A DNA stretch of 64,000 bases from Amphibalanus amphitrite (lineage: Eukaryota > Arthropoda > Thecostraca > Balanomorpha > Balanidae), in the NCBI RefSeq assembly GCF_019059575.1, contig NW_024883412.1, positions 1 to 64,000 on the forward strand. Direction: 5' to 3'. The position numbers and the translations under genes are program-made. Positions 380 to 49,683 of the stretch are shown in pieces. Every line of letters begins with the position of its first letter. Within the stretch, counting starts at the first letter, position 1. The notes below the pieces were generated by a model that did not search any database, had not been told where the DNA came from, and saw only the letters and a list, made by a program, of their open reading frames with translations.

Positions 380-401
380 GCTCGCGTGGAACTAGCCAAG
401 G

Positions 402-3400
402 ATGGCTGGTGTGGGGAGAATGGCGGAGTTCGACCCACAGGCCGAAAGTTTTGGGACCTATTCACGGCGCATGGAACAATTTTTCATCGCTAATGGTGTA
501 AAGGAAGAGGAAGAAGTGCGTCGACGAGCAATCTTCTTGAGTGTGGTGGGCAGTGACGTGTTTAGCCTACTCGAGGACCTGATCGCGCCGGCCACGGTGA
601 GCTCACTTAGCTACAAGGAGATCATCAAACTCCTGCTGGGACATTTTGAGCCGGCATCCTCAGCAATCGTGGCACGGTTCAGCTTTAATCGCGCCGTGAG
701 AGAAGACGGAGAGTCTGTCTCGGCATTTGTGGCTCGTTTGCGTCGGTTGGCCAAGCCCTGTCATTTTCTGAGTGAAACACTGGAGGAAATGCTGAGGGAC
801 AGGTTCGTGTGCGGCCTTCAAAATGCACATATTCAAGCCAAGCTGCTGAAGGAGCAACATCTCTCTCTGGCGTCGGCTATTGACATCGCCCAACTCAGCG
901 AGGCGGCGGACGCAGACGCTTCGCTGTTGAGCGGAGCGGTCGCGGCGGATGACGTCATCCACGCGGTCAGCTGGCACGGTGCCAGGAGGGGCGGCGCTGG
1001 AGGTCGAGGCGGCGGCCGCGGCCGCGGTCGCGGTGGCTGGATCAGCAGCGGCCAGCAGCGGAATCTGCAGCAGCCCAGTCCCAGGACGGGTGGCGAGGCT
1101 GCAATCTTCACTGGATCTTCACCAGGACGGGTACGAGGCGGTGGCGACAGCGGACGGCGTCGGGGTGTCGCGCTCCGCCAGCCGCAGTGCCCGTACTGTC
1201 TGCGACAGCAGCACGCGGAGACGGAGGACTGTCCGGCGCGGCGGCTGCGCTGCTATCGGTGCCACGCTGTGGGGCACGTGCGAGCCGCCTGTCGTGCCGG
1301 CTGGTCTCCGCGGGTGTATCATCTCGACGACGATGGTCTGGAGGCATTCCGAGACGGCGGCGGGCCCGGACCGTGGACTGAGAACCACGGCTCCGGGATG
1401 ATGGACACGCGCCAGTCGTCGGGAGCGGCCGCTGCCGGGGAGTGCCGCGCAGCTGCAGAGGAATCGGGTCCTGCTTACTTGGAAGGTACGGTCTCAGGTG
1501 ACGTGTCTGGTGGTGAGCCTGGGGAAGTAAGGCAGGGGCCGGACGATGATGTGTATTTTCTGTTCAAATCTCGTGAGATTGGTGGGACCGAGCGAAAACC
1601 ACCATTGTGTGTTGATGTGTTTGTGGATGGGAAACCGGTACGAATGGAGGTAGACACTGGGGCAGCGCTATCGGTTTGTTCAGAGCAGGGGTACCGAAAG
1701 ATTTGGCCTAAAGGGGGACCGGTGATTCAGCCATGTACCAAAGTGCTGAAAACGTACAGTGGCGAGATATTGCCGAGCGTGGGACAGGTGCAGGTACAGG
1801 TCAGATATGAGGGTCAGGCTGCTGATTTGTCTCTGATTATCCTGGAGGGTTCAGGTCCGTTTTTGTTGGGAAGGGACTGGCTGGCCAAGCTCCGACTAGA
1901 CTGGCCAGCTATTTGTCGGCTGTCTACCGAAGCGTCGATTGAGGGTCTCGTGGCTGAGTTTGATGATGTTTTCAGCCCACAACTAGGACGCTACGCGGGC
2001 GATCCGGTGAGCATTGAGGTGGATGCCGGAGTTCAGCCGCGCTTTTTCAAGGCTCGCCCGGTGCCCCTGGCGTACCGGGAGCAGGTGGAGCACCAGTTGC
2101 AGGCCGAGATCGATCGGGGCTTGTGGGAGCCCGTGAAATCGAGTAAGTGGGCGGCACCGCTAGTGCTAGTGCCGAAATCTGACGGGTCAGTGAGGATTTG
2201 TGGGGACTACCGCCTGACCATTAATAAAGCGGCTCCGGTGGAGCAGTATCCTTTACCGCGTTTTGAAGAGCTCTCAGCAAAGCTCCAGGGGAGTACGGTG
2301 TACTCAAAGGTTGATCTCAAATCGGCCTATAATCAGCTCCCTCTAGACGAAAAATCGCGAGAATATCTTACCGTCAACACTCTAAAAGGCTTACTGAAGC
2401 CCACAAGACTCGGGTTTGGGTATTCATCCGCACCAGCACTTTTCCAAAGAACGATGGAGGTGCTCTTAGCGGGCATCCCAGGGACATGCGTCTTTCTGGA
2501 TGATGTCGTAGTCTCGGGTAAGACGCTGCAGGAGCATAATGTCGCACTGCGAGCGGTGTTGACGCGTATCCGTGAGGCCGGACTGCGGCTTAACAAGGAC
2601 AAGTGCGTTTTCGGAGCTCACAGGGTGGTGTACCTGGGTCATCAGATCAGTGGTGAGGGTGTCGAACCGACAGATGACAAAGTGGAGGCGATCACAGCGG
2701 CCCCGGAGCCGGAAAATGTGTCCCAGCTGCGCTGCTGGCTGGGACTGGTTAACTTCTACGGGAAGTTTCTGCGTGGTCTGGCCACTACGCTGTCACCACT
2801 GTACGCTCTTTTGCGAAAGGATGCTGTTTGGAAATGGGCGGACGCGGAAAAGGAGGCATTTCAGGATGCCAAGCGCCTGTTACGGAACCCTCCCGTTCTG
2901 GCACACTTTGATCCTCAGTTACCGATCACGCTGGCATGTGACGCCAGTCCGGTGGGGATCGGTTGTGTCCTCAGTCAAAAGACGCCGTCCGGCGAGCGCC
3001 CAGTAGCGTATTATTCGCGCACGCTCAATGAGACGGAGCGGCGTTACTCGCAAACTGACAGAGAGGGCTTAGCGGTGGTGGCAGGGGTCAAACATTTTCA
3101 CTTTTATTTAGCTGGCAAGACGTTCGTTATCCAAACGGATCATAAGCCCCTGCTGGGTTTAATTGGCGAGATGAAACCCCTCCCGCTTATGGCTTCGCCG
3201 AGAGTGATCCGTTGGGCGATTATGTTAGGGTCATATGACTATCATCTGGAGTATATACCGGGCGCGAGACAGGTTCATTGTGACGCTCTGAGCCGTTTGC
3301 CGGTGCCGGGGGACGTGACGTCAGTGAGTCCCGTGCCGGCGGAGACCATTCATTTGCTGGAATTTCTGGATGATTCGCCGGTTTCTGTGGCTCAGATCCG

Positions 3401-4688
3401 CAGTTGGACAGAGCGAGACCCAGTGCTCTCGGCGGTTTTACACTTTGTTAGAGATGGGTGGCCACAGCAGTCGGCGCCGCTGGGCCCCGAGTTCCAGCCG
3501 TTCAAAAGTCGGGCGGCAGAGCTCAGTGTGCAGGATGGGTGCATCTTGTGGGGCTCCCGAGTCATCGTTCCGACTCAGGGGAGGAAACGGGTATTAGCCA
3601 TGTTACATGAGGGGCATCACGGTGAGTCACGCACAAAAGCTTTTGCGCGCATGTACGTATGGTGGCCCAATTTGGATGAACATATTGTCGCGATGACGAA
3701 CCAGTGTGACACATGTCAGATGTATCGTGCCAATGTGCCGGACACGCCTGTTCATCCCTGGGCGTGGCCGTCTCGTCCGTGGGAGCGCATACACTTGGAT
3801 TACTGTGGACCGATGTCGGGCTGGATGTTTTTAGTCATTGTGGATGCGCACTCAAAGTGGGTTGACGTGTACCCGTCGCGCAGCACGAGCACATCCGCAA
3901 CATTGGAGCACCTACGCCAGTCATTTGCTTGTTGGGGGATGCCACACACGATAGTGACGGACAACGCACAGTGTTTCCTGTCGGAGGAATTCAAAGCGTT
4001 CTGTAAGCGGAACGGCGTGGTACATTTAACGACGCCTGCGAGGTCGCCTAAATCGAATGGCTTAGCTGAAAAGTGTGTGGGAACTTTTAAACTCAGTTTC
4101 AAGAAGCAGCAGTCAGGATCTGTGCACACAAAAGTTTCGAGATTTTTGTTTCATTACCGAGCTACTCCCCATACCACGACTCGCGCTACACCGGCGGAGT
4201 TGTTTTTGGGGCGGCGTATGCGAACACCGCTGAACGCTCTAGTGCCTGATTTAGGTGCGACAGTGCGGCAGACTCAAGCGAAACAGAAATTGTATCGCGA
4301 TCGGCACACGGTTGGTCGTCAGGTGGCCGTGGGCGATGCTGTTTTTGTGTCTGCAGTGGACCAGCTCAGCGGTGGCGGGGGGAGGACGTGGCTGCCCGGT
4401 GTCCTGGTGGGGAGAGAGGGTGTGAAACTGTCAGTGCGACTCAGAGATGGGCGTGTGATCCATAGACACCTCGACCGTGTGCGGACGTCTGGCCAAAATG
4501 TTTGCAATGCTGCCCATCGCAATGTCAGCATTCCCAGTGTTGGATATCCTCCCTCATGTGTGCGTGAGCCGTCCTCACGGGCCGCTGAGACGTCGCCCTC
4601 GGCGACGGAGGCCGAGGGAGACGGCCCGGGGGACGGGGGACGTTACGCTTTGCAGTTTGCGAGACCGTGCGCGGCTCCGTCCGCCTGA
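402..4688 (+). CDS. gag-pol: Gag-Pol polyprotein, Ty3/gypsy
   Basis: A single 1428-residue frame encodes all functions for copying the element by reverse transcription and integration. Domains in order: Gag-like region (about residues 1-170), Arg/Gly-rich tract (about 195-215), two zinc knuckles (CPYCLRQQHAETEDC near 263 and CYRCHAVGHVRAAC near 284), aspartic protease with DTGA near 416, reverse transcriptase with FLDD near 696 (most relatives have YLDD or YVDD), RNase H with ACDAS near 845, HHCC zinc region near 1070-1110, and integrase core with LDYCGP, TDNAQCF and NGLAEK supplying D, D and E near 1132, 1185 and 1221. Gag and Pol share one frame with no stop or shift between them. The ATG at 402 is the first in frame after the primer site. 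The C-terminal 80 residues look like a post-integrase tail with no chromodomain that I recognise. Confidence 0.95.
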   Translation: MAGVGRMAEFDPQAESFGTYSRRMEQFFIANGVKEEEEVRRRAIFLSVVGSDVFSLLEDLIAPATVSSLSYKEIIKLLLGHFEPASSAIVARFSFNRAVREDGESVSAFVARLRRLAKPCHFLSETLEEMLRDRFVCGLQNAHIQAKLLKEQHLSLASAIDIAQLSEAADADASLLSGAVAADDVIHAVSWHGARRGGAGGRGGGRGRGRGGWISSGQQRNLQQPSPRTGGEAAIFTGSSPGRVRGGGDSGRRRGVALRQPQCPYCLRQQHAETEDCPARRLRCYRCHAVGHVRAACRAGWSPRVYHLDDDGLEAFRDGGGPGPWTENHGSGMMDTRQSSGAAAAGECRAAAEESGPAYLEGTVSGDVSGGEPGEVRQGPDDDVYFLFKSREIGGTERKPPLCVDVFVDGKPVRMEVDTGAALSVCSEQGYRKIWPKGGPVIQPCTKVLKTYSGEILPSVGQVQVQVRYEGQAADLSLIILEGSGPFLLGRDWLAKLRLDWPAICRLSTEASIEGLVAEFDDVFSPQLGRYAGDPVSIEVDAGVQPRFFKARPVPLAYREQVEHQLQAEIDRGLWEPVKSSKWAAPLVLVPKSDGSVRICGDYRLTINKAAPVEQYPLPRFEELSAKLQGSTVYSKVDLKSAYNQLPLDEKSREYLTVNTLKGLLKPTRLGFGYSSAPALFQRTMEVLLAGIPGTCVFLDDVVVSGKTLQEHNVALRAVLTRIREAGLRLNKDKCVFGAHRVVYLGHQISGEGVEPTDDKVEAITAAPEPENVSQLRCWLGLVNFYGKFLRGLATTLSPLYALLRKDAVWKWADAEKEAFQDAKRLLRNPPVLAHFDPQLPITLACDASPVGIGCVLSQKTPSGERPVAYYSRTLNETERRYSQTDREGLAVVAGVKHFHFYLAGKTFVIQTDHKPLLGLIGEMKPLPLMASPRVIRWAIMLGSYDYHLEYIPGARQVHCDALSRLPVPGDVTSVSPVPAETIHLLEFLDDSPVSVAQIRSWTERDPVLSAVLHFVRDGWPQQSAPLGPEFQPFKSRAAELSVQDGCILWGSRVIVPTQGRKRVLAMLHEGHHGESRTKAFARMYVWWPNLDEHIVAMTNQCDTCQMYRANVPDTPVHPWAWPSRPWERIHLDYCGPMSGWMFLVIVDAHSKWVDVYPSRSTSTSATLEHLRQSFACWGMPHTIVTDNAQCFLSEEFKAFCKRNGVVHLTTPARSPKSNGLAEKCVGTFKLSFKKQQSGSVHTKVSRFLFHYRATPHTTTRATPAELFLGRRMRTPLNALVPDLGATVRQTQAKQKLYRDRHTVGRQVAVGDAVFVSAVDQLSGGGGRTWLPGVLVGREGVKLSVRLRDGRVIHRHLDRVRTSGQNVCNAAHRNVSIPSVGYPPSCVREPSSRAAETSPSATEAEGDGPGDGGRYALQFARPCAAPSA

Positions 4689-9015: not shown

Positions 9016-12000
9016 ATGATGGAAAGGTTTACCATTCCCGTGCTCAAATATGAACTGGGTAAACGAGACCTAGATACGAGGGGGTTAAAGGCGGCTCTCA
9101 TGGACAGACTGATGCATGCAGTTACGAGGGAAGGATTGGATCCGAGAACATACGTTTCTGATTTTTATCAGTCCCCTGCGGCTACTACTCGCGGAACCGT
9201 TCGCACAGATGAAACAAGCGACCGTAACGAACGTCAGTTCAACGCGCAGCGCGAGTATTTAGAGTGCGTCGATGGCTCGAATCGCGTTAATTTATTCGGT
9301 GTTGCTGGAGGCGTTGCTGGAGGCGTTGCTGGAGGCGTTGCTGGAGGCGCTGCTGGAGGCGCTGCTGGAGGCGCTGCTGGAGGCGTCACTGCGGGAGCTG
9401 TTGACGGTGTTGCTGGTGCTGCTGATGGAGGCGAAGCTGGAGATGAGGCTGGAGATGATGTTGCTTCGGTAGCTTCCCGTTCATCTGTCAGCACAAGAGC
9501 CACTTCTTCGTCTAGACGCTCGGTGACATCCATGAGAGCTCAGGAGGCAGCTAAACAAGCAGAACTTCGCGCGAAAGCTTCATTTCTGGAGGAGAGAAGA
9601 AAGGTGGAAGAAGAAGAACTTCTGCTGCGGCTCGAAGTGCAGAAGCGCAAGCTGCAGCAAGAAATGGAGCTGAAGGAGATGGAGCTTCGTCAGAGGTTGA
9701 TGTCTCGGCAGAAGAAAGAAGAACTGCACATCCGTCAGCAGATGGCTGAAGTTGATGCCAGAGAGAACGCTGTAAGAACTATCGAAGAAGAGCTGATAAG
9801 ATCAGAAGAAGCTGACAGAGTACCTCGTCTGGCCTCATTGAACGCTGAAGCGCCCATCTTCCAGCCTACTCAGCGGTTCCAATCAGATGTCAACGTGTCC
9901 ACGACTCTTCCAACCAAGAAAATGACTTCCCCAGGATCTATAGTGAACAGGTGTGCGGACGTACCTGTGGGATACCTTGATGTACAACGACAAGAGATAC
10001 AACATGCCAACGCACTGCAAAGACGAGAAACCCAGGACTTCACTGGAGCCGTTGAAGCTGGAGCGCTGGGAACAACTGAAGCTGGAGTGCCGAAATCTGA
10101 AGCATCCAGGCTGAGCCAAAGTGCACCACATCCGGGTGCATCATGCCCAGCCACGCAGACACCGCCTGACTGTCTTCTCGGCTCGGAAGTTCTGCAAGGC
10201 ACACCGCATTATCCTGGCAGCCAGAAAATGCACACTAACGAAGGGTCTCCTGAATATTCACAAGAGAAGAGCTCGATAGAAGAGCTAGTAACCCGACAGA
10301 ATCTCGTCATGGAGTCTCTGATGAATCAGCAAATGAGGAGTCTTCTCCCGAAGTTGGAGACGGTGAAGTTCGCTGGAAACGTCACCGAATATACTCAGTT
10401 CACCAAGACCTTCGACAGCAACATCGGATCCAAACTGGCCAACGATGAAGAGCGCCTCGCTTACTTGGACCAATACCTGGTGGGAGAACCCAAGGAGCTG
10501 ATAAGAAGTTGTCTGCTGATGTCACCATCTGAAGGGTACAGCGAGGCCAGGAACCGGCTTCATCAGCGGTATGGAGATCCATACAGAACTGTGGCTATCC
10601 TGATCAACAAGATCATGAAGTGGCCCTCGGTCAAACCTGAAGACGCGCATGGCTTGGATAAACTCTCTCTGTTCCTGTCGAGCTGCTACTCTTCGGTAAC
10701 AAGTGAAGCGTCATCTCTACAGCTAGACCAGCCAAGTGTTCTGAGGAGTGTCCTGGACAAGCTGCCTCCTGGTATGCAGGATAGATGGAGAAGGAAAGCT
10801 GTGAGAATCCGGGACTCGCAAGGAGACGTGAAGTTCAAGGACTTGGTCTCCTACGTCGCAGAGGAAGCCAGAGTACTGTCTGACCCTCTCTTCGGAAGAC
10901 AAACCCCCGACAAGTCAGTCAGAGAAGCACAGAGGACCGAAGGATATGGTCATGGAAGATCTGGACGCGTGATGGCCACGAACATCAACAGCAGAGATCA
11001 GCAAAGAAAATGTTGGTTCTGTGGAGAGGAACACTTGTTAGAAGACTGTACGACGCTGAGGTCGAAGTCAATGCAGGAGAGGAGGGAGTTCATTCTGAAA
11101 AACGCCCTGTGCTACGGCTGCTTGCGGAAGTGGCATCGCGTGTCTGTCTGCTCGGCTCGGAAGTTCTGCAAACTCTGCAAAGGCCGCCACCCAACACTCC
11201 TTCATGAGGACAGAGGCTCAGCACCAGCATTGCAACCGTCTGAGAAGAACAGTGACGAATCTGAAACGCCAGTCAAAAATGGGTCTGTCGGTATGACGCA
11301 GACTGGAGCGAATCTGCAGTCGAACATGCCGGTCATTCCAGTCAAGGTAGGCGACGGTAAAACAGTATCTACATACGCCTTCCTGGACAGTGGCAGTTCC
11401 GCCTGCTTCTGCACTGAGTCCTTGCTGACAGCTCTGCAGGCGGGTATCCACTGCACTCCAACGCGATTGACTTTGGAAACCGTGAACCCGGAAGTGACCA
11501 GGATGAAGAGTCTCATCATCAACGGCATCCAAGTGTCTGATCTTGAAGAAAGTTCCTTCATATCACTTCCAGCAACGTACACCCTGGACAAGATTCCAGT
11601 TTCTCGCGACGACATTCCCACAGCGCGGGATATAGAAGTCTGGCCTCACCTGAGAGAATTGGAACTTCAGGACATCAATTCGGAGGTCAGCCTGATGATT
11701 GGCAACAATGTGCCAGAAGCAATGGAGCCATGGGACGTCATCCACGGGATGCCAGGCGAGCCGTTCGCGGTGAAAACCAAGCTGGGGTGGGTCGTTAACG
11801 GCCCCATGAAGCCAGAAACTGGCCAAAACATCCGCTTCAACAGGGTCAGCGTCAAAGAGGACGTTCACGAGATGTTTATAAGGATGTACAACGATGAATT
11901 CAGAGACGAAAACATGGAGGGAAAAGGAATGTCTCAAGAAGATCTGGTGTGGCTGAACAAGGTCGAGTCAGCATGTGAACTTACGAGTGACAACCACTAC

Positions 12001-15000
12001 CAGATACCACTTCCTTTCAGAGATGAAAATGTGCGGCTTCCAAACAACATTACAATGGCCACCAGAAGACTGGAGTCGCTGAAGCGGAAGCTCTCTGGAG
12101 ACGAACGTCTTCTCCAGGATTACACTATCTTCATGGAGGAAATGTTGAAGAAAGGCTACGCCGAAGAGGTTCCAGAAGAAAAGACGAATGAGGGCAAGGT
12201 CTGGTACCTTCCTCATCATGGTGTCCGTCATCCCCAGAAGCCAGAAAAACTGAGAGTGGTTTTTGATTGCGCAGCGAAGTTTCACGACACCTCTCTGAAT
12301 GACAGGCTGCTTCAGGGTCCAGACCTCACCAACGACCTGCTGGATGTTTTGCTGAGGTTCAGGGAGGGAGCTGTAGCATTTACGGCAGATGTCGAAGCCA
12401 TGTTCTACCAGGTGAAGGTACCGTCGGGGGATCGAGACTTCCTCAGATTCCTCTGGTGGCCAGAGGGCAACTTGAAGATGCGCCCAAAGGCGTATCGTAT
12501 GACGGTTCATCTGTTCGGGGCCTGCAGCTCACCCAGCTGTGCGAGCTACGCATTGAAGAAAACGGCCAAGGACCATGGAGTGCTGTTCGAAGACGGTGCT
12601 GCCCAAACTGTTTCCAACAACTTCTACGTCGATGACTGCCTGAAGTCTGGACAAGACCAAGAGAAAGTGACAGCGCTGGCGCATGGTGTGAAGCAGCTCT
12701 GCGCCTTGGGGGGATTCAATCTCACCAAGCTCATGAGCAACAGCCGTCAACTGCTGAACTCATTCCCCTCCGAAGAACGTGGAAAGAAGGTCAAGACCAT
12801 CGATCTCAGTCATGGTGAGCTTCCTGAGACAAAGGCTCTAGGCGTGGTTTGGATTCCGGAGGATGACGCGCTGGTGGTGAAAACTGAAGTGACAACGAAA
12901 GAACCAACCAGAAGGGGGATACTCGCGACGGTCAGCTCCGTCTATGACCCGCTGGGCATAGTCGCTCCCTTCACCCTGTCAGGGAGAATGATCCTTCAAG
13001 AGCTGTGCAGACTGGAACTGGGATGGGACCAGCCCTTGCCTCCCCACTTAGAGGATATGTGGAAGAAGTGGATAGAAGCCCTGCCAAAGCTTGCAGACTA
13101 TCACATTGACAGATGTGTGATGCCCAGACATTTGGGTGAGTGTGTGGACGCTCAGGTCCACCATTTCTCGGACGCCAGCGAGAAAGGGTTTGGGTCTGTA
13201 GCATATCTGCGACTGACTGACGCAGAGGGCAGAATATGGTGTTCATTTCTGTGCGGAAAGGCTCGAGTTGCCCCTCTGAAGACGATCACTATTCCAAGAC
13301 TCGAGCTGGTTGCGGCTGTCATGGCAGTGAGGATCAACAAGAGGATCGAAAGGGCCATGGACCTCTCTGCGAACTCTACATATTTCTGGAGTGACAGCAT
13401 GACTGTTATCAACTACATCAGGAACACAAAAACGAGGTTCCATGTCTTCGTGGCGAACCGGCTTAAAATTATTCATGACAGTTCTTCTACTTCACAGTGG
13501 AGGTACATCCCAGGACCTATGAATCCTGCAGACGAAGCATCCAGGGGACACCAGACAGAACGATGGCTGAGAGGCCCAGACTTTCTCTGGAATCCTGAGT
13601 CGGAGTGGCCACAGTTGCCATTCGATGACGCAGAATTGTCACCCTCTGATCCTGAAGTCAAAGCAAGCAGTCTTGTCGTGATGGAAAGGTCCAGCACAGA
13701 AGCTGGTGACCAGATTGGTGATGATGTTTCCAACCCTGCTGGTCTTGAACATGCTGCGGATCCTGTACAACAGCTGGCAGAACACTATTCTAGCTGGTAC
13801 AAACTGAAGAAAGCAGTAGCATGGCTGATGCGTGCGAGAAGTGCTCTTCGAGCCAAGGCGAAGAACAAGACGAGGTCGTGTGCAACCGACTTCACCGGAC
13901 AGTTGACAGTTGACGAGCTGGAAGCAGCCGTCAAGGTCATCATCAGATCAACGCAGAAGCAAGCGTATGGAGAAGAGATGGCTGCTCTTGGGGAAGAACA
14001 CTTCAGAAATGACGAGAAAGCGAAAGGACGTCACTTGAAGAAACCCAGTCCGCTCCGAAACTTGGATCCAGTACTGGAAGACGGCCTCCTCAGAGTAGGA
14101 GGACGTCTGAGAGCATCCACTTTAGAGCATGGAAGAAAACATCCTTTGATTCTGCCTGGGAACAGTCATGTAGCCCGTCTCATCATCGAAGACACGCATC
14201 GCCAGGCAGGACACCAGGGAAGAGAGCATGTTCTCGCCGCCCTACGTGAGCGTTTCTGGGTGACTAAGGGGAACACAGCAGTGCGTCGTGTTCTGAGAGC
14301 ATGCGTAAGATGCAGACGTCTCCAAGCACCAGTGTGCTCCCAGAAAATGTCTGATTTACCAGAGGAACGCATGGAGCCTGGACTGCCCCCCTTCACAAAT
14401 TCTGGAGTGGACCTCTTCGGCCCATTCTATGTGAGACGCGGAAGAGGTCAAACAAAGGTCTACGGGGTAATATTCACCTGCTTAGCATCACGGGCCATCC
14501 ATCTGGAGATCGCAGATTCACTATCAACGGATTCCTTCATCAACGCCTTGAGACGCTTCATCGCCCGCCGAGGAGAAGTGAGATCCATGAGGTCTGACCG
14601 AGAAACCAACCTTGTTGGTGCAGAACGCGAGCTCAGAGAATGCATCGACAACTGGAACGAGGAACACCTTGTTGAAGCAATGCGCCAGAGAAACATCCAA
14701 TGGAGTTTCAATCCACCGAGTGCGTCCCACTTCGGAGGCATATGGGAGAGACAGATCAGAACAGTGCGGAAGGTCCTGACAGCTGTACTTTGTGAGCAGA
14801 CAATGACTGAAGACAGCCTGAGAACACTGCTCTGTGAGGTAGAAGCCATCGTCAACAGTCGGCCCTTGACCACCGTTTCTGACGATCCATCGGACCTCTC
14901 TCCTCTCACACCAAACCATCTGCTTCTGCAGCGCAGCGGTACTCCGCTGCCGCCAGGAGTCTTCGAGCCAGATGACTTGATCTGTCGAAAGCGTTGGAAG

Positions 15001-15282
15001 CAAGTTCAGTACCTGGCGGATCTCTTCTGGCAGCGATGGACGAAGGAGTATCTGGCACTTCTACAGAGCAGAGTGAAATGGCAGCGACCTGTTCGAAATC
15101 TGCAAGACGGTGATGTTGTAGTGGTGGTTGAAAACGGCTTGCCCCGGTCACAGTGGCGACTGGGTAGAGTCGAACGGGCTGTGGCCAGTGCCGACGGACT
15201 GGTGCGAAGGGCACTTGTTCGCACGGGTCATAGCGTGATAGAGAGACCTGTGTCCAAGCTTGTCCTGCTCTTGGAGGAATGA
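9016..15282 (+). CDS. gag-pol: Gag-Pol polyprotein, BEL/Pao
   Basis: One open frame of 2088 residues. N-terminus: a SAP-like helix-turn-helix (about 5-37, with LKYELGKRDLDTRGLKAALM), then a Gly/Val/Ala repeat, a charged coiled coil (about 175-265), a DUF1759-type Gag core (about 455-610), Cys/His zinc fingers (CWFCGEEHLLEDC near 665; CYGCLRKWH and CKLCKGRH after it), a BEL-type aspartic protease (FLDSGSSACFC near 790), RT with YVDD near 1204, RNase H with HFSDAS near 1382, an H2C2 zinc region (about 1725-1775), integrase core (GVDLFGPF, SDRETNLVG and FGGIWERQ giving D, D, E) and a DUF5641-type C-terminal domain (about 1980-2085). This order is diagnostic of BEL/Pao. The SAP-like start is, to my knowledge, not standard for the family. 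All catalytic residues I can identify are present, so the copy looks competent. Confidence 0.95.
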   Translation: MMERFTIPVLKYELGKRDLDTRGLKAALMDRLMHAVTREGLDPRTYVSDFYQSPAATTRGTVRTDETSDRNERQFNAQREYLECVDGSNRVNLFGVAGGVAGGVAGGVAGGAAGGAAGGAAGGVTAGAVDGVAGAADGGEAGDEAGDDVASVASRSSVSTRATSSSRRSVTSMRAQEAAKQAELRAKASFLEERRKVEEEELLLRLEVQKRKLQQEMELKEMELRQRLMSRQKKEELHIRQQMAEVDARENAVRTIEEELIRSEEADRVPRLASLNAEAPIFQPTQRFQSDVNVSTTLPTKKMTSPGSIVNRCADVPVGYLDVQRQEIQHANALQRRETQDFTGAVEAGALGTTEAGVPKSEASRLSQSAPHPGASCPATQTPPDCLLGSEVLQGTPHYPGSQKMHTNEGSPEYSQEKSSIEELVTRQNLVMESLMNQQMRSLLPKLETVKFAGNVTEYTQFTKTFDSNIGSKLANDEERLAYLDQYLVGEPKELIRSCLLMSPSEGYSEARNRLHQRYGDPYRTVAILINKIMKWPSVKPEDAHGLDKLSLFLSSCYSSVTSEASSLQLDQPSVLRSVLDKLPPGMQDRWRRKAVRIRDSQGDVKFKDLVSYVAEEARVLSDPLFGRQTPDKSVREAQRTEGYGHGRSGRVMATNINSRDQQRKCWFCGEEHLLEDCTTLRSKSMQERREFILKNALCYGCLRKWHRVSVCSARKFCKLCKGRHPTLLHEDRGSAPALQPSEKNSDESETPVKNGSVGMTQTGANLQSNMPVIPVKVGDGKTVSTYAFLDSGSSACFCTESLLTALQAGIHCTPTRLTLETVNPEVTRMKSLIINGIQVSDLEESSFISLPATYTLDKIPVSRDDIPTARDIEVWPHLRELELQDINSEVSLMIGNNVPEAMEPWDVIHGMPGEPFAVKTKLGWVVNGPMKPETGQNIRFNRVSVKEDVHEMFIRMYNDEFRDENMEGKGMSQEDLVWLNKVESACELTSDNHYQIPLPFRDENVRLPNNITMATRRLESLKRKLSGDERLLQDYTIFMEEMLKKGYAEEVPEEKTNEGKVWYLPHHGVRHPQKPEKLRVVFDCAAKFHDTSLNDRLLQGPDLTNDLLDVLLRFREGAVAFTADVEAMFYQVKVPSGDRDFLRFLWWPEGNLKMRPKAYRMTVHLFGACSSPSCASYALKKTAKDHGVLFEDGAAQTVSNNFYVDDCLKSGQDQEKVTALAHGVKQLCALGGFNLTKLMSNSRQLLNSFPSEERGKKVKTIDLSHGELPETKALGVVWIPEDDALVVKTEVTTKEPTRRGILATVSSVYDPLGIVAPFTLSGRMILQELCRLELGWDQPLPPHLEDMWKKWIEALPKLADYHIDRCVMPRHLGECVDAQVHHFSDASEKGFGSVAYLRLTDAEGRIWCSFLCGKARVAPLKTITIPRLELVAAVMAVRINKRIERAMDLSANSTYFWSDSMTVINYIRNTKTRFHVFVANRLKIIHDSSSTSQWRYIPGPMNPADEASRGHQTERWLRGPDFLWNPESEWPQLPFDDAELSPSDPEVKASSLVVMERSSTEAGDQIGDDVSNPAGLEHAADPVQQLAEHYSSWYKLKKAVAWLMRARSALRAKAKNKTRSCATDFTGQLTVDELEAAVKVIIRSTQKQAYGEEMAALGEEHFRNDEKAKGRHLKKPSPLRNLDPVLEDGLLRVGGRLRASTLEHGRKHPLILPGNSHVARLIIEDTHRQAGHQGREHVLAALRERFWVTKGNTAVRRVLRACVRCRRLQAPVCSQKMSDLPEERMEPGLPPFTNSGVDLFGPFYVRRGRGQTKVYGVIFTCLASRAIHLEIADSLSTDSFINALRRFIARRGEVRSMRSDRETNLVGAERELRECIDNWNEEHLVEAMRQRNIQWSFNPPSASHFGGIWERQIRTVRKVLTAVLCEQTMTEDSLRTLLCEVEAIVNSRPLTTVSDDPSDLSPLTPNHLLLQRSGTPLPPGVFEPDDLICRKRWKQVQYLADLFWQRWTKEYLALLQSRVKWQRPVRNLQDGDVVVVVENGLPRSQWRLGRVERAVASADGLVRRALVRTGHSVIERPVSKLVLLLEE
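9299..9400 (+). repeat. Coding 12-bp tandem repeat (GGCGTTGCTGGA)n in BEL gag
   Basis: About seven or eight 12-bp units encode GGVA/GGAA repeats. The unit is a multiple of three, so length changes keep the gag frame. The repeat gives spurious open frames on both strands. Confidence 0.9.
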
Positions 15283-17858: not shown

Positions 17859-19039
17859 TTAACCTTCGCCCCAGTGGGGGGGGGGGGCATATGTTACCAC
17901 CCTGTTGCGTTTTTTGCGTGTGAATAAAAAACCGCGGCGCGTAGCGCCGCGCCGCTTGGGGTAGCTTTTGGTACATCGATTTTGGACAATGTGTGAAATT
18001 TTTGACCCCAGGTCATGTCAGGTCAGGTCACCAGGTCAAGTTAACTGACCAAGCCTAAAAAAGTTTGCAATCATGTCCAGCCTGCAGTGTTTGTCAGAAA
18101 GGTTTCAAACTTGGTGGATTGCATGCTGTTATGGGCGCCTACAATTTGTATATCTCGGATTTTTTATATCCGTGACCTAAGGTCAGGTCAGTGGCGAAAC
18201 CTTTCCATTACAAGTCAATGGAGAAAAATGAAAATGCCTCTAGATCCGTGTGTACGCATCGGAACAGTCCAAATATTTCAGAATCACAATGATTTAGTCC
18301 ACTCGTGATGACCAAGGTGTCATTTTTGCTGATAGCCTCTAGACAGGTCATCCGAGGTCACTTGAGGCTACAAACAGTTTTTTGCCAATAACTCGCGATT
18401 GGAAAGAGATAGAACGCTGGGGTTGGTCTCATTGTGTTTGCCTTGTTAAGACGCATCGACTGATATGCAACATGATCTTTTCCGGTAAGGTCATAACCTT
18501 GACCTGAGGTCAAATTTTCAACTTGACCTTTCAAGGTCAAATTATAGTTCATTCGACGCGTCTCGGCGAGAGGAACACGATTCTGGCAATAGAAATGTCG
18601 TGGATTTTTGTAGTCGAAAGTTATTGTCGAAAAACACTTTTCGTAAAAACAGTTATTTTTGGACTCTGCCCTCTGGAGGCCAAACCGTTGACCTGAGGTC
18701 AATATTGATAATGACCTTTTCAAAAGAAGAGTTCAAACGCTATCGATTGCTTTTTCCTGCGTTATTCTAGCTACCATAGTTCCTGAGATAGCGGCATGTT
18801 TTCTGAAAAATATAATGACAATTGGCAAATTTTGACCTTTGATGACCTCTGGTGACCCCAATATTGCTCTAAGGTGAAAAATGACTGAAATACTTTCAAA
18901 CGTACGCATTGAGAGCTATCGACTGCTTTTTACCGCGTCTTTCTAGCCCTCTTAGTTTTTGAGTTAGAGGTGGGTGGTAACATATGCCCCCCCTCACTAG
19001 GGCGAAGTTGGCTGAGACCGCCACTGGGGCGCGGGTTAA
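17859..19039. mobile_element. TTAA/AGGTCA element, copy B
   Basis: TTAA at 17859-17862 and 19036-19039. The left end CCTTCGCCCCAGTGGGG and the right end CACTGGGGCGCGGG form imperfect inverted repeats. The inner block GGGGCATATGTTACCACC at the left pairs with GGTGGTAACATATGCCCC at the right. Inside are numerous AGGTCA/TGACCT words and a GC hairpin around 17934-17956. No coding capacity. Confidence 0.85.
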
Positions 19040-21534: not shown

Positions 21535-21581
21535 ATGGGGTATAAAAGTGGCTCTTGCTTGGTCTACTCCACACTTCAGCC
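21535..21581 (+). promoter_or_regulatory. TATA-box core promoter of the astacin gene
   Basis: GGGGTATAAAAGTGG (TATAAAAG at 21541-21548) lies 34 bp before the ATG. Transcription would start close to ACTTCAGCC, leaving a very short leader. The ATG context GCCATGG is favourable. Confidence 0.7.
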
Positions 21582-24500
21582 ATGGCGCGTCTCCAGCTTG
21601 CAGTTCTGCTGTCGGCAGCAACGGTAGCGTTGCAGAGGACAGGCTCCACTCCAGTCAGGATTGCCGAGGCGGAGGATATCACGACGCCCCCGCCTCCTCC
21701 GATACCTCCATTCATGATGGACCCGCCTCTGAACGTCACTCTACTGGATGGATCCGTTGAAGAGCTTTTCGAAGGGGACATCGTCCTCACCAAAGATCAG
21801 CGTCTCAACCGTAAGGGTGCCCTGGCATCGACCTGGCCGAATGCAGTTGTGCCGTATATAATCACCAAATCCTCTAGAGGTGACGAGACCATCATTCTAG
21901 AAGCAATTGCTCATTGGGAGAATGCAACGTGCCTCAGTTTCGAGAGGAAACGAGGACAATACAGGAAAGGGCCGCACATTCGCTTCGAAAAGTTGTCAGG
22001 ATGCTGGTCCTACGTTGGTATGAGAAAGTCGAAGGAAGGTCAGACAATTAGGCTGGGGGGATCCAGAGCGTCGTAAGCCTCGTCGCAGCTGCGACGTGTC
22101 GCAAGTTGTGTAGTAAGTCGTTTTTGGAGGGATCAATTGATGAGTAGCGTTACTTAAGAAGTAAAGTCTATCGCAAAGTGCCTGATTTACGACACAACTT
22201 ACGAATTTGAAATAGCAGTCGTAAGTTGTGTCGCAAGTTGATATGGCCTTGAGGGAGAGGTCACAGGTCACAGGTCATTGGGATCATGGTCACGAAATTT
22301 GCATGGTACGTGGAAAATTGTTGAAACTTGAGATCCTGAAAATTTCGTTGCAATCCGTTTCCGCTAACGCGAGTTATAAAGCAAGAACCAACGGTTCGTC
22401 TATGAGGCCTCAATCCGCGCCAGCGAGAGTGTTGAACATGGTGCATAATATGTTATATTCACATTTATTGGGGTATTCATGGATATGAAGTAGCCTAACA
22501 CCATTCCAGTAACTACTGGCGAATCCAGAAAGGCGGTCTTGGACGTTGCGAGGGGCATCCCCCAAAAGATTCTCCAAATTCTAAAAACGATGTGTCCCAG
22601 ATGACCCCCATGACCTCGAATTGATCTCTGTGATGACCCCAAGTTGACCTCTGTGACCTGACGTGTCCCAGATGACCTCCAATTGAGCTTTGTGATGACC
22701 CCAAGTTGACCTCTGTAACCTGACGTGTCCCAGATGACCTCCGTGAACTCCAATAGAGCTCTGTGATGACCCCAAGTTGACCTCTGTGACCTGACGTGTC
22801 CCTTGATGACCCCCATGACCTCCAATAGAGCTCTGTGATGACCCCAAGTTGACCTCTGTTACCTGAAGTGTCCCAGATGACCTCCGTACCTCCAATTGAG
22901 CTCTCTGATGACTCCAAGCTGACCTCTGTGACCTGATGTGTCCCAGATGACCTCCAATTGAGCTCTGTGATGACCCCCAAGTTGACCTCTGTAGCCTGAC
23001 GTGTCACAGATGACCTGCGTGATCTCCAATAGAGCTCTGTGGTGGCCCCAAGTTGACCTCTGTGACCTGACGTGTCCCAGATGACCTCCAATTGAGCTCT
23101 GTGATGACCCCAAGTTGACCTCTGTAACCTGATGTGTCCCAGATGACCTCCGTGACCTCCAATTGAGCTCTGTGATGATCTCAAGTTGACCTCTGTGACC
23201 TGACGTGTCCCATATGACCTCTGTAACCTCTAAGTGACCCCTCTGATGACTCCAAGCTGACTTATCTGACCTGGTGTGCCCCAGATAACCGTCATGACCT
23301 TCAATTGAGCTCTGTGATGACCCCAAGTTGACCTCCGTGACTTGACGTGTCCCAGATGACCTTCGTGACCTCCAATTGAGCTCTTTGATGACCTCAAGCT
23401 GACCTGTGTGACCTGGCGTGTCCCATATGACCCCCAATTGAGCTCTGTGATGGCCCCGAGTTGACCTCTGTAACCTGACGTGCCCCCAAGTTGCCTTCTG
23501 TGACCTGACGTGTCTCAGATTACTTCCGTGGTCTCCAATTGAGCTCTGTGATGACCCCAAATTGACCTCCGTGACCTGAAGTGTCCCAGATGACCTCTGT
23601 AACTTCCAATTGTGACCTCAATCTCCAACTCTACTAACTCTCTGTGACCTCATACTCTCTTAACTCATTTCTTCTAAAGCATCGCTTCTAGATGCCCTAT
23701 AGCGCCACGAATCTCCTGTGATCGATCCCAAAATTCATGGCAACTCACGTGAGCGTTAGCAACCACAAGTCACCCAGTTGAGACAAAGCTTCAGAATCAG
23801 AGAACATGCTTGAACTGGCTGTCTCATAAGCTCGCAAACCAGAAGGGCGAATGTTCCTTTATGCTTGATAGAGTTTTCGACCTTACTGACGCTTACTACG
23901 GGATCAGCTGATCGTGTAGCCTTTTAAATTCTCGAGTAAAGCGGGTATTTAAACCTTGTCGCAGCTACGTTCTGTCGTATCCTCCGACAAACCCCTCTTT
24001 CCTCAACATCCCTCCTTTTCCGCTACGACACAACTTGCGACGGGACATGTGTCGTAACTTGCGACGTGTCGTAGATGGACTTGCGACGCCCTGGATCCCC
24101 CCGGCCTTAGCATTGGGAATAATTGCGAATATCTCGGTATTGTGGTACACGAGATTGGCCATGCTATCGGATTCTGGCACGAACAGTCCCGTACAGATCG
24201 AGACTCGTACGTCACGGTCATTTCGGAGAACATCCAAACTGACCGAGGAGGTAATTTCAACATAGCGTTCACCGAACAGTCACTGGGAGTTCCGTACGAC
24301 TTGAACTCCTTGATGCACTACGGTGGATTTGCTTTCACCAATAATGGTTTTCCGACACTCGTCACCAACGACATCGCTCAGGCGGGACTAATTGGGAATC
24401 GCGACGTTCTCTCACACCGCGACAAGCACCTGGCCAACCTGATGTACCTCTGCGACGCCAGCTGCTCATCCCCGCCCACCTGCGCCAACGGAGGCTACGT

Positions 24501-24942
24501 GGACAGCAGCTGCACGTGCGTGTGTCCTCCGGGAACCAGCGGCACCACGTGCCAAACCGTCACCGGCACCTACTACGAGGCGCCGTGCGGCGACCAGGAC
24601 ATCACAACGGAGAGCAACATCACCTCGCCCGACTACCCCAGCATATACGCGCCCGGACTGCACTGTGTCTGGATCGTCACCGCGCCAGAAGGAATGCAGG
24701 TCCTCATCGAGTTCGGCGCGTTCAAGATGTTCGGTCGCTCTGGTGTCAGGTGTCCCTTTGACTGGGTGACCGTGCACACCGATAGCGACTCGATTCCAGA
24801 CTACGTCAACTGCGACGAGGAGCTGCAGGATAAGAACATCACGTCGTCGGGCGGTCGTCTGGCTCTGGAGTTTCACAGCTATGGTGGTGGCAGCTTCCCT
24901 GCTAATCAGACGGGATTTACGGCAACGGTGACGTTCGTCTAG
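21582..24942 (+). CDS. Astacin-family metalloprotease with EGF and CUB domains; exons 21582-22072 and 24111-24942
   Basis: A secreted zinc endopeptidase of the astacin/tolloid family. Signal peptide at residues 1-17; Pro-rich propeptide with the aspartate-switch motif FEGD (63-66); catalytic domain from about A81 (WPNAVVPY); zinc site HEIGHAIGFWH (H177, H181, H187; catalytic E178); Met-turn SLMHY (230-234); an EGF-like module (about 280-312) and a CUB domain (about 322-439). With the proposed splice the product is 440 residues. The start ATG at 21582 has a TATA box upstream. The intron is not ordinary: its span coincides with an inverted-repeat element flanked by TTA. Splicing from GTAAGC at 22073 to TTAG at 24107-24110 keeps the frame but inserts 7 extra residues (RLGGSRAS for one S) just before the conserved ISIGNNC region. 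If not spliced, the protein would stop at 22076 without its active site. The gene call is firm; the exact junctions need transcripts. Confidence 0.88.
22066..22080 (+). other. Proposed splice donor within the left terminal repeat
   Basis: GAGCGTC|GTAAGCC, cut after 22072. The right terminal repeat has GTCGCAAGT at the equivalent place, so the donor T looks like a C-to-T change of the repeat, or the older form was a GC-AG type donor. Confidence 0.65.
22600..23610. repeat. About 62-bp TGACCT-rich minisatellite inside the introner-like element
   Basis: Roughly sixteen diverged units share blocks such as TGACGTGTCCCAGATGACC, TCCAATTGAGCTCTGTGATG and CCCCAAGTTGACCTCTGT. Each unit holds three or four TGACC words. 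The minus strand of the array is open for long stretches, which creates spurious SSQSSIGGH-type frames. Confidence 0.9.
24090..24111 (+). other. Proposed splice acceptor at the right edge of the element
   Basis: CTGGATCCCCCCGGCCTTAG|C, cut after 24110. The pyrimidine run comes from the terminal repeat, while TTA is the target duplication and the final G is host exon sequence, so the acceptor was created by the insertion itself. Confidence 0.6.
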
Positions 24943-31829: not shown

Positions 31830-33170
31830 TCCTTCTCTTGGTGATGCCCCCTCTTTTTTTCTGGAAGCGTCTCACTTATGCTGGTACCTATGTCTCACTT
31901 CCCGGGGGCGCCCAACCTCTGCTTGGATCGCCTAATCCATTATGGAGAGACCCACTTTGCTTAAGTCGCCTCATTTCTTCCTTCTAAGAACGACCAATTT
32001 GCTGTAGGCGGCCCACTTATCTGGGACGCCCATCTTCTGCTAGAAGTGCCCCTCTTCTTCCTGATGCGTCCCACTTCTACTACGAGTGCACCTTTTCTGT
32101 TAGGGCGCCCCTTTGCTGCTGAGGAGTCTTTTCTACTGTGAATAGGGCGGCCCTCTCCTGTTTGGCGACCCCAAATTCTGCTGGAGGCGCCCCACTTCTG
32201 CCCAACTTTTGGTGGGGTGCCCCTCTCTTGCAGGGGGCACTTCTCTTTTGCTGGAGACGCCACTCTTGTGGGGGCGCCCTTCCACTGCGGGGAACGTCTC
32301 TCTTCTGCCAGAGGCACCCCTTTTCTTCTTATGGGGCTCCTGTTTTTTTTTTTCTGGGGCGAGGCGACCCTCTGCTGCTCGGAACGGGGCACACCTCTCC
32401 TTTTACTGGGGCAGCGCCCCTCTGCTGGGGTTGCCCCTCCGCTGTCGTCAGGGGCGCCCCTCTTGGTAGAATATACTCCTTTTCTTTTTGTAATGGGGCG
32501 CCCCTCTTCTACCGGGGGCGCCCATCTGCTGCTGGGGCGTCTGTCTTCTGCCGGATATTGTCAATGGGGCGCCCATATCCTGTTTGGCGGGCCCAACCTC
32601 TGCTGGAGGCTGCCTATTTCTGATTAACTTTTGCTGTGGCGCCTCTCTTCTGCTGGGGCGCCCCTCTTCTGCTTGGGGCGCCCGTCTCCTACTGGAGACC
32701 CCTCTCTTCTGCTGGGGCGCCCCTCTTCTGCCAGTGGCACCCATTTTCTTATTATGGGGCTCCTTTTTTGCTGGGGCGCCCAGCTGCTGTCAGGGCGCCC
32801 CTCTTCTCGGAATGGGGGCGCCTCTCTCCTTTTGCTGGGGCGTCGCTCCTCTTCAGGGGGACACGTCTCCTGCTAAGGGTGCCCTTCCGCTGCCAGGGGC
32901 GCCCCTCTTGAACAGAAGGTATTTTATATTCTTGTAACAAGACGCCCTCTTCTGCTGGGGGCGCCCATCTGCTGCTGGGGCGACTCTCATCTGCTGGGAA
33001 TAGGCAATTGGGCGTCACTCTCCTGCTTGGTGAGCCCAACTTTTGGCTGGGGGCGCCCTATTTCTGCTGAACCTTTGCTGTGTCGCCGCTCTTCTGCTCG
33101 GGGCGCCCTCTCTGCCGCGGGATATGGGCGCCTTTTTCGGATGGCGGGGGGGGGGGGGCGGCCGCCCCCG
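31830..33170. repeat. GGGGCGCCCCTCTTCTGCT-type minisatellite of the hAT element
   Basis: Dozens of degenerate units of about 20-30 bp centred on GGGGCGCCCC and CTCTTCTGCT. GGCGCC palindromes recur throughout. All three plus-strand frames are largely open, giving repetitive Leu/Ser/Pro/Gly frames that are not genes. Confidence 0.85.
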
Positions 33171-48090: not shown

Positions 48091-49311
48091 TCACTGCCCG
48101 ACAGCAGCATCCTGCCAGGGGACGGCTCCCTCGGCCATGAAGTACCGGGCGAACTGGTCGCGGATGCGCTCGGCCTCCCGAGTGAAGTTGTTGGCGCCCA
48201 GCCTGCCCAGCTCGCAGAGTCCGCCCACCTGCTCGCCGCTGGCGTCGGCCTGCTGCGGCTGCTGGCTGTCCGCCTGTCCTTGGTCGCGCACGTAGTTGTG
48301 CAGGATGCACGCCGTCCTGACAATAGTGCAGGCGTGCTCAGGATTGACGTTCAGCGGACGCCGGAAGATGCGCCACGTCTGGGAGAGAATCCCGAACGCG
48401 TTCTCCACTACCCGTCGGGCGCGCGACAGCCGGTAGTTGAAGATGGTGGCCGGAGCTCCCAGCCGGCTCTCGGTACGTCCGGGATAGGGCCGCATCATGT
48501 GCACCGTCAGCGGGAAAGCTTCATCGGCGACGATGACGCTTGGTAGGGTCGTGCCTCTCTGATCGATCGCCTTGGGAGGGGGCAGGTCGAGAGTGCCGTC
48601 TTGCAGTTTGGCGGCTAGGTCACTCCTCCTAAAAATGCCCCCGTCCGACTCTCTTCCGGCGCTTCCCACTGACGTGTACACGAATCGATAGGCACCGTCC
48701 ACGGCTGCCAGGAGGACGATGCTGAAGGACTTTTTGTAGTTATAGTACTCGCTGCCAGAGTTGGAAGGGGCTTGGAGTACCACATGCTTCCCGTCCAACG
48801 CGGCCACGCAGTACGGGAAATTCCACTGGGTGCGGAAGATCTCCTCGCTTCGCTCCCACGTCGCCCTGGTGGGAGCTGGAAGCACCTCCGGTCCCAGTAT
48901 GGCGATGATGGCCGCGCATGTGTCGTACACGATGGCACGCACGGTTTTCTCGCCGAGGCGATAGCAGGGTGCCAGCGCAGAAAACTCCATGCCGGAGGCC
49001 AGGTACCGCAGCGTCACGGCCAGGCGCTGAGCGGGGTCGATAGGTTCGCGGAAGTTGGTGCGCTGGCGCGTGATGCTGGGCCCGATCTTGGCGAGAAGCA
49101 GGTCGAAGGTCTCCCGACTCATGCGGAAGTAGGCATGGTGCCGGTCGGGATCCACGGCACGCAGCTCCTGCACCAAGTTAAAAAACTCGCCTCGGGCTTG
49201 TCGCCTCTGCAGCACTTCGGCAACCCAGTACCTGCGTCGGGCTCGACGGCGCTCCTGCTCCACCCGGATTCGAGTCGTGCTTAGTGCGATTCGTGCGATG
49301 TTTAGCTCCAT
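48091..49311 (-). CDS. PIF/Harbinger DDE transposase
   Basis: A 406-residue DDE_Tnp_4/HARBI1-type nuclease that cuts and rejoins the transposon ends. The catalytic triad is visible: D173 in AALDGKHV, D263 in VIVADEAFPL and E303 in RRVVENAFG, with the family block SGSEYYNYKKSFSIVLLAAVD after the first Asp and SDGGIF at 222-227. The N-terminal 110 residues are basic and helical (RRRARRRYWV). No stop or frameshift, so it is probably functional. Its ATG at 49311 gives the usual family length. It faces the MADF gene tail to tail, about 870 bp apart, with a hAT MITE between. Confidence 0.93.
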   Translation of the reverse strand: MELNIARIALSTTRIRVEQERRRARRRYWVAEVLQRRQARGEFFNLVQELRAVDPDRHHAYFRMSRETFDLLLAKIGPSITRQRTNFREPIDPAQRLAVTLRYLASGMEFSALAPCYRLGEKTVRAIVYDTCAAIIAILGPEVLPAPTRATWERSEEIFRTQWNFPYCVAALDGKHVVLQAPSNSGSEYYNYKKSFSIVLLAAVDGAYRFVYTSVGSAGRESDGGIFRRSDLAAKLQDGTLDLPPPKAIDQRGTTLPSVIVADEAFPLTVHMMRPYPGRTESRLGAPATIFNYRLSRARRVVENAFGILSQTWRIFRRPLNVNPEHACTIVRTACILHNYVRDQGQADSQQPQQADASGEQVGGLCELGRLGANNFTREAERIRDQFARYFMAEGAVPWQDAAVGQ

Positions 49312-49683
49312 GTCGTGAATAGTTAATTGAATAATGACGGACTTTTAGCTGATGTGAGAACAATAACAAACGTTGTTTACATTTCCGTCCCTGCTAAGAG
49401 ATTGTATTGTCTTCAAGAACAATTTAATGAACCTTTTACGGTTCATATAAGAAACTGACACAAATTAAACCACGGTCAAAGGCGCAATTAATTATATAAA
49501 TAATTATTATTTATCTGTCAGTGATGTGCATTACCACAAATTATATTACATTTTCATGCATTTTTTATCGAATTGTCCTTGAGCTATCATGGCGGATCCC
49601 GATGAAATCAAATTCATCGCATAGTCATCGTTAAATTAGGCGCCGAAAATGGTATTCAGCGCCTAAACGATTAGGCGCTGAAA
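49312..49683. other. Harbinger subterminal region upstream of the transposase
   Basis: AT-rich in the middle (TAATTATTATTTATC) and would hold the transposase promoter. Near the end TTAGGCGCTGAA words repeat those next to the left terminal repeat. Confidence 0.5.

Follow-up and report, generated by a model that had tools for sequence, protein, structure and literature searches.

The origin of an intron is normally reconstructed well after it has taken place, and a case in which filled and empty copies of one gene stand side by side in a single assembly is well placed to ask what happens at the start. The locus described here raises that question: does a DNA transposon that has landed in the catalytic-domain exon of an astacin protease gene break the gene, or is it taken out of the transcript as an intron would be? 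One of two copies of the gene is filled and the other is untouched, so the case tests gene breakage against intron-like removal. The earlier note on this DNA had favored removal and described the element as an introner, a class of transposons reportedly treated by Huff et al. in 2016. Exact GC-AG splicing, splicing that adds seven residues, and retention with a stop codon predict different cDNAs, which would distinguish intron gain from ordinary loss-of-function. Caution is needed in reading such data, as an intron can be mimicked when empty-allele transcripts are mapped to a filled reference or a protein is aligned to it. The stretch analyzed, called here the window, comprises positions 1-64000 of contig C1915 in an Amphibalanus amphitrite assembly (G000; 807.55 Mb, 2644 contigs). 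The transposon insertion that it carries in a coding exon is real, young and polymorphic; an empty counterpart is present elsewhere in the assembly, and the element belongs to a family of roughly a hundred copies.

The astacin gene is a single exon that extends from 21582 to 24942 on the plus strand. A TATAAA at 21541-21546, upstream of the ATG, was read by eye. The first part of the coding sequence (21582..22047) is open from the ATG, reaches into the catalytic domain and ends just before the target TTA; it matches positions 1-73 of the Pfam Astacin profile. The second part (24110..24942) includes the zinc-binding HEIGHAIGFWHE, the remaining catalytic domain, a CUB domain recognized by Pfam, and the stop codon; it matches the consecutive portion of the same profile (70-188 of 189 positions). 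Between the two parts lies the 2056-bp inverted-repeat element with TTA on both sides that the earlier note had described, and its limits were confirmed at 22051..24106. The left copy of the target duplication occupies 22048..22050 and the right copy 24107..24109. Deletion of the element together with one TTA restored, as had been claimed, the catalytic-domain sequence: the resulting open frame encodes an astacin-CUB protein of 433 residues that contains GQTISIGNNCEYLG. The best protein match of the gene, the NCBI protein P0001, is 100% identical, and the matching proteins are named as coming from Amphibalanus amphitrite. The structure predicted for the protein has a mean pLDDT of 88.4, and the first 25 Foldseek matches listed were all astacin-family proteases. 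A collection of viral contigs, from which the genome records of the window itself were possibly excluded, contained neither a relative of P0001 nor a match to the ends of the element.

The terminal inverted repeats of the element are located at 22051..22077 and 24080..24106, and the inverted arms, measured from 22050-22077 and 24080-24107, are 89% complementary. A 23-base pattern derived from the ends, with up to three mismatches allowed, matched twice in the window and never in 100 shuffles, and no further copies of the ends were present within the 64 kb. The motif TCGYAAG occurs eight times in the element, four per strand, versus 11 times in the other 62 kb. The four longest reverse-strand frames of the element fell below every Pfam cut-off, and no transposase was recognized in them. 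Its interior includes a minisatellite (22592..23486) with a unit of about 71 bp, the reverse strand of which is open over long stretches. When this reverse frame was used to search for other copies of the element, the only matches were four unnamed proteins from contigs of at most 2.7 kb; arrays related to the minisatellite thus exist in other datasets.

The exact terminal-repeat pattern was found 227 times in the assembly (110 forward and 117 reverse matches) and its reversed control not once, so the same terminal inverted repeats are common to many copies, roughly 110 if most copies carry both ends. The best 40 of 196 candidates scored, the window copy included, were 99-100% identical over the left 153 bases. 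Seven other left ends, compared outside the minisatellite, showed 98.7-99.3% identity to that of the window copy; for six right ends the range was 98.6-99.4%. The target triplets at these 40 top-scored left flanks were TAA (20), TTA (9), TGA (4), CTA (2), CAA (2), TCA (1), TTG (1) and TTT (1), a tally in which TTA is favored because the query carried it. The flanks of L008 and L048 are one and the same, which leaves 39 distinct left flanks. The 3-bp TWA/TNA target duplication of PIF/Harbinger elements was recognized in the window (TTA/TTA), and 34 of the 40 left triplets have the form T-N-A. The family, whose target and end structure we take to be of PIF/Harbinger type, is therefore most likely a PIF/Harbinger-like, non-autonomous one, an assignment that rests on these two features. 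Both ends were read in six other copies, and the left and right triplets agreed in four of them; the two copies with mismatched triplets, L002/L069 and L006/L067, perhaps reflect later change or recombination between copies.

Two longer copies and one transposase gene were considered as autonomous partners and rejected. L072 (C89:579500-585650) is a 6013-bp family member flanked by TAA at either end; about 4 kb of its interior is unrelated sequence, and none of ten frames matched a Pfam family at the curated cut-off. Its best pieces are 92% and 88% identical, and this higher divergence indicates that the family is not uniformly young. L073 (C38:1516060-1522750), where the bases at the two sides do not match, is a copy of the element inside which, judged by eye, a gag/pol retroelement is apparently nested. 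The window itself contains, at 48094-49344 on the minus strand, an open gene of 417 residues resembling DDE_Tnp_4 transposases of the Harbinger type; no ends matching those of the element were found near it, and a transposase with matching ends was found neither there nor among the frames of L072.

An empty site, which the earlier note had proposed to look for as a record of the ancestral state, was found on contig C2149. A protein search of the assembly identified there an uninterrupted copy of the gene that matches P0001 along its full 389 residues at 94% identity, and the empty site is exact, with a single TTA at 31931. The flanks of the insertion are 92.5% and 92.4% identical to C2149 and meet at the target. 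Hence, an exon insertion with an intact empty counterpart, one of the features looked for in an introner, is present at this locus. The filled and empty coding sequences show 48 differences in 1302 bases (27 residue changes, dN 0.030, dS 0.065) and no frameshift; they are identical for 128 bases to the left and 138 bases to the right of the junction. The same comparison was carried out for one other copy of the element, on C694, the flanks of which match C646 at 92% and 88% and overlap by exactly three bases, TTA. We infer that C2149 is the other haplotype and that the insertion is polymorphic. The two contigs also differ by several more unshared stretches, and the aligned DNA near the gene differs by about 7.5%; these differences suggest that haplotypes are held apart in the assembly on contigs of their own. 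The youth of the insertion, claimed earlier, is supported by the identity of the compared copy ends (98.6-99.4%) and by the presence of the empty site. Since copies of the element differ by about 1% and the haplotypes by about 7.5%, the insertion probably postdates the haplotype split.

It is very unlikely that C2149 instead holds a recent paralogue that never carried the element, with the filled gene being a degenerating duplicate. In most animals, alleles are more alike than the 92.5% identity seen in the flanks, which speaks for two genes. Against this stands the distribution of matches in the assembly: besides C1915, C2149 alone reaches 94%, and the next place is at 74%. Several more distant astacins likewise resemble contig pairs, and the unrelated locus on C694 and C646 also has no more than two places in the assembly, one with 100% identity and the other with 92% on the left or 88% on the right. 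Moreover, the window and C2149 share collinear blocks between window positions 19038 and 42922, interrupted by unshared stretches. Finally, alleles are far apart in a related barnacle too, with a median difference of 5.3% and a range of 2-11% across 66 genes (PMC8270832).

The explanation that we consider probable for the filled copy, judged from the DNA sequence, is an unspliced and probably null polymorphic transposon insertion in the astacin exon. In this reading, a young multicopy cut-and-paste transposon of the PIF/Harbinger type, with a 3-bp TNA duplication and a repeat that starts GGCYGGGGGG, inserted itself on one haplotype into the exon for the catalytic domain of an astacin gene that lacks introns, and the other haplotype has kept the empty site. 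With the element retained, the frame reads RLGGSRAS followed by an in-frame TAA (22074..22076, plus strand) before the zinc-binding motif. The filled allele, which we infer to be mostly unspliced, would then produce a transcript that meets this stop eight codons into the element, and it may persist as a tolerated, probably null, polymorphism. Two observations count against parts of this explanation. No further disabling change is present in the filled allele, and P0001 reads as though the element had been taken for an intron. This protein, which we take to derive from the filled contig C1915, begins at residue 45 of the full astacin frame, and has the sequence expected after exact removal of the element, with no RLGGSRA. 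Such a sequence would result from a weak GC-AG intron or from the empty allele, and the annotation could have been built from empty-allele transcripts, from an aligned protein, or from real splicing. No gene model cut short within the element was found; the one match among 83 candidates was a coral protein.

Splicing could remove the element in more than one way. Both the first base of the element and the host base that follows the target TTA are G, so a shift of one base turns the exact element into a GC...AG intron of 2059 nt (22052-24110, tag|GC...TTAG|c) that would restore the parental protein and leave an mRNA identical to that of the empty allele. The donor GC lies at 22052..22053 on the plus strand, and the right TTA with G24110 forms the acceptor-like TTAG. 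The splice proposed in the earlier note uses the same acceptor and a GTAAGC donor within the left repeat (22073..22078, plus strand). Its frame is indeed kept, giving 440 instead of 433 residues by the addition of RLGGSRA. However, 25 GT/GC-AG pairs, this one among them, leave an open frame when donors are taken from 21951 up to the first in-frame stop and acceptors from about 23951-24200. Frame preservation is therefore cheap. On a simple matrix, the GC at 22052 scored -0.72 and the GT at 22073 scored -0.27, both weak, and 11% of the plus-strand GT dinucleotides in the window score as high as the latter or higher. Weak GC-AG and GT-AG candidate pairs at the element are expected from the ends of the family.

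Removal as an exact GC-AG intron is improbable, though the likeliest of the alternatives; in its full form, the GGC ends of the family, the TTA target and the next host G would together create an exact GC-AG introner that segregates in the population with the protein unchanged. This is the sole pair among the 25 that yields the parental protein, and P0001, although it comes from the filled contig, has precisely that sequence. Moreover, the 128 and 138 identical bases beside the junction mean that short reads of empty-allele origin would align to the uninterrupted C2149 site at least as well; why an annotation pipeline should then have opened a gap in C1915 on such reads would be less obvious. 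Families in which up to 50% of donors are GC have been reported (Gozashti et al., PMC9860276). Nonetheless, GCTGGG is a poor match to the donor consensus. Any family copy that lands at TTAG produces the same coincidence, as three of the five copies with both triplets matching do, and one of these is the C694 copy, where the empty haplotype is not open. The same gene model could also have been reached by the pipeline through protein alignments or empty-allele transcripts. The GTAAGC splice is far less probable still. Although its frame is open and its donor somewhat better than the GC site, its seven residues are absent from P0001. Its GTAAG belongs to the recurring TCGYAAG motif, so its occurrence there needs no splice function, and GT sites that score as well are common in the window. 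In an alignment of P0001 with 22 of 120 listed homologues, all 23 sequences have exactly two residues between the invariant Q110 and S113. The junction 112|113 falls inside a predicted strand (110-114), within blocks of the model that have pLDDT values of 91 and 89, and the seven extra residues would split that strand. An unspliced, probably null insertion is preferred over both forms of splicing.

The element may work like an introner, and its family was examined for signs of intron making. The main text of Gozashti et al. (PMC9860276) takes as a criterion at least four similar introns in unrelated genes, with the similarity reaching the splice boundaries. A search for the element ends in other exons, which the earlier note had suggested, was carried out on the left side through open frames and Pfam matches in about 500 bases (1500 for seven copies), a test that could miss short or novel exons. 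Among the 39 distinct left flanks, that of the astacin gene was the only one recognized as coding. In the other 38, 23 open frames of at least 45 codons abut the element, and none reached a Pfam cut-off. On the right side the flanking sequence was read in six copies, and the coding test covers 39 left flanks of a family estimated at about 110 copies. The copy L005, on C694, was considered as a second coding insertion and rejected, since its match to INT1_R3 (E 0.074) is below the cut-off and the empty haplotype is not open there. The flanks covered gave no sign of an intron-making family. No report of introners in barnacles was present among the literature matches listed, and the words 'barnacle', 'crustacea' and 'arthropod' are absent from the main text of PMC9860276.

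Three known systems come close to this case. Non-autonomous PIF/Harbinger elements have 3-bp TWA/TNA duplications, repeats starting with GG, subterminal repeats and many near-identical copies in which no transposase gene is recognized. The astacin element shares all of these features but differs in carrying a minisatellite, and no end-matched transposase was found for it. In plant Ds/dSpm alleles, transposons inserted in exons are partly spliced, as shown by RNA. The likeness lies in a single exon insertion with cryptic splice sites near the ends; in those alleles, however, splicing has been demonstrated by RNA, whereas for the astacin element it is a prediction. With introners, as they appear in the main text of Gozashti et al. 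2022 (PMC9860276), the element shares an exon location, terminal repeats and a target duplication that together offer splice-like bases, an aquatic host and an empty counterpart site. It differs from them in its length, 2056 bp compared with reported family medians of 30-654 nt. Unlike in introners, splicing at the astacin element is predicted only, no group of four or more similar introns accompanies it, and no other copy was found in a recognized exon among the 39 distinct left flanks.

The left flank of L038 (C1587:88106-88665) encodes on its minus strand a peptide that is also encoded at the right end of the window element, which suggests that a second copy or fragment lies close by. In the window, long open frames of LTR retrotransposons are found on the plus strand at 399-4688 and 9016-15279, the second with a Pao peptidase.
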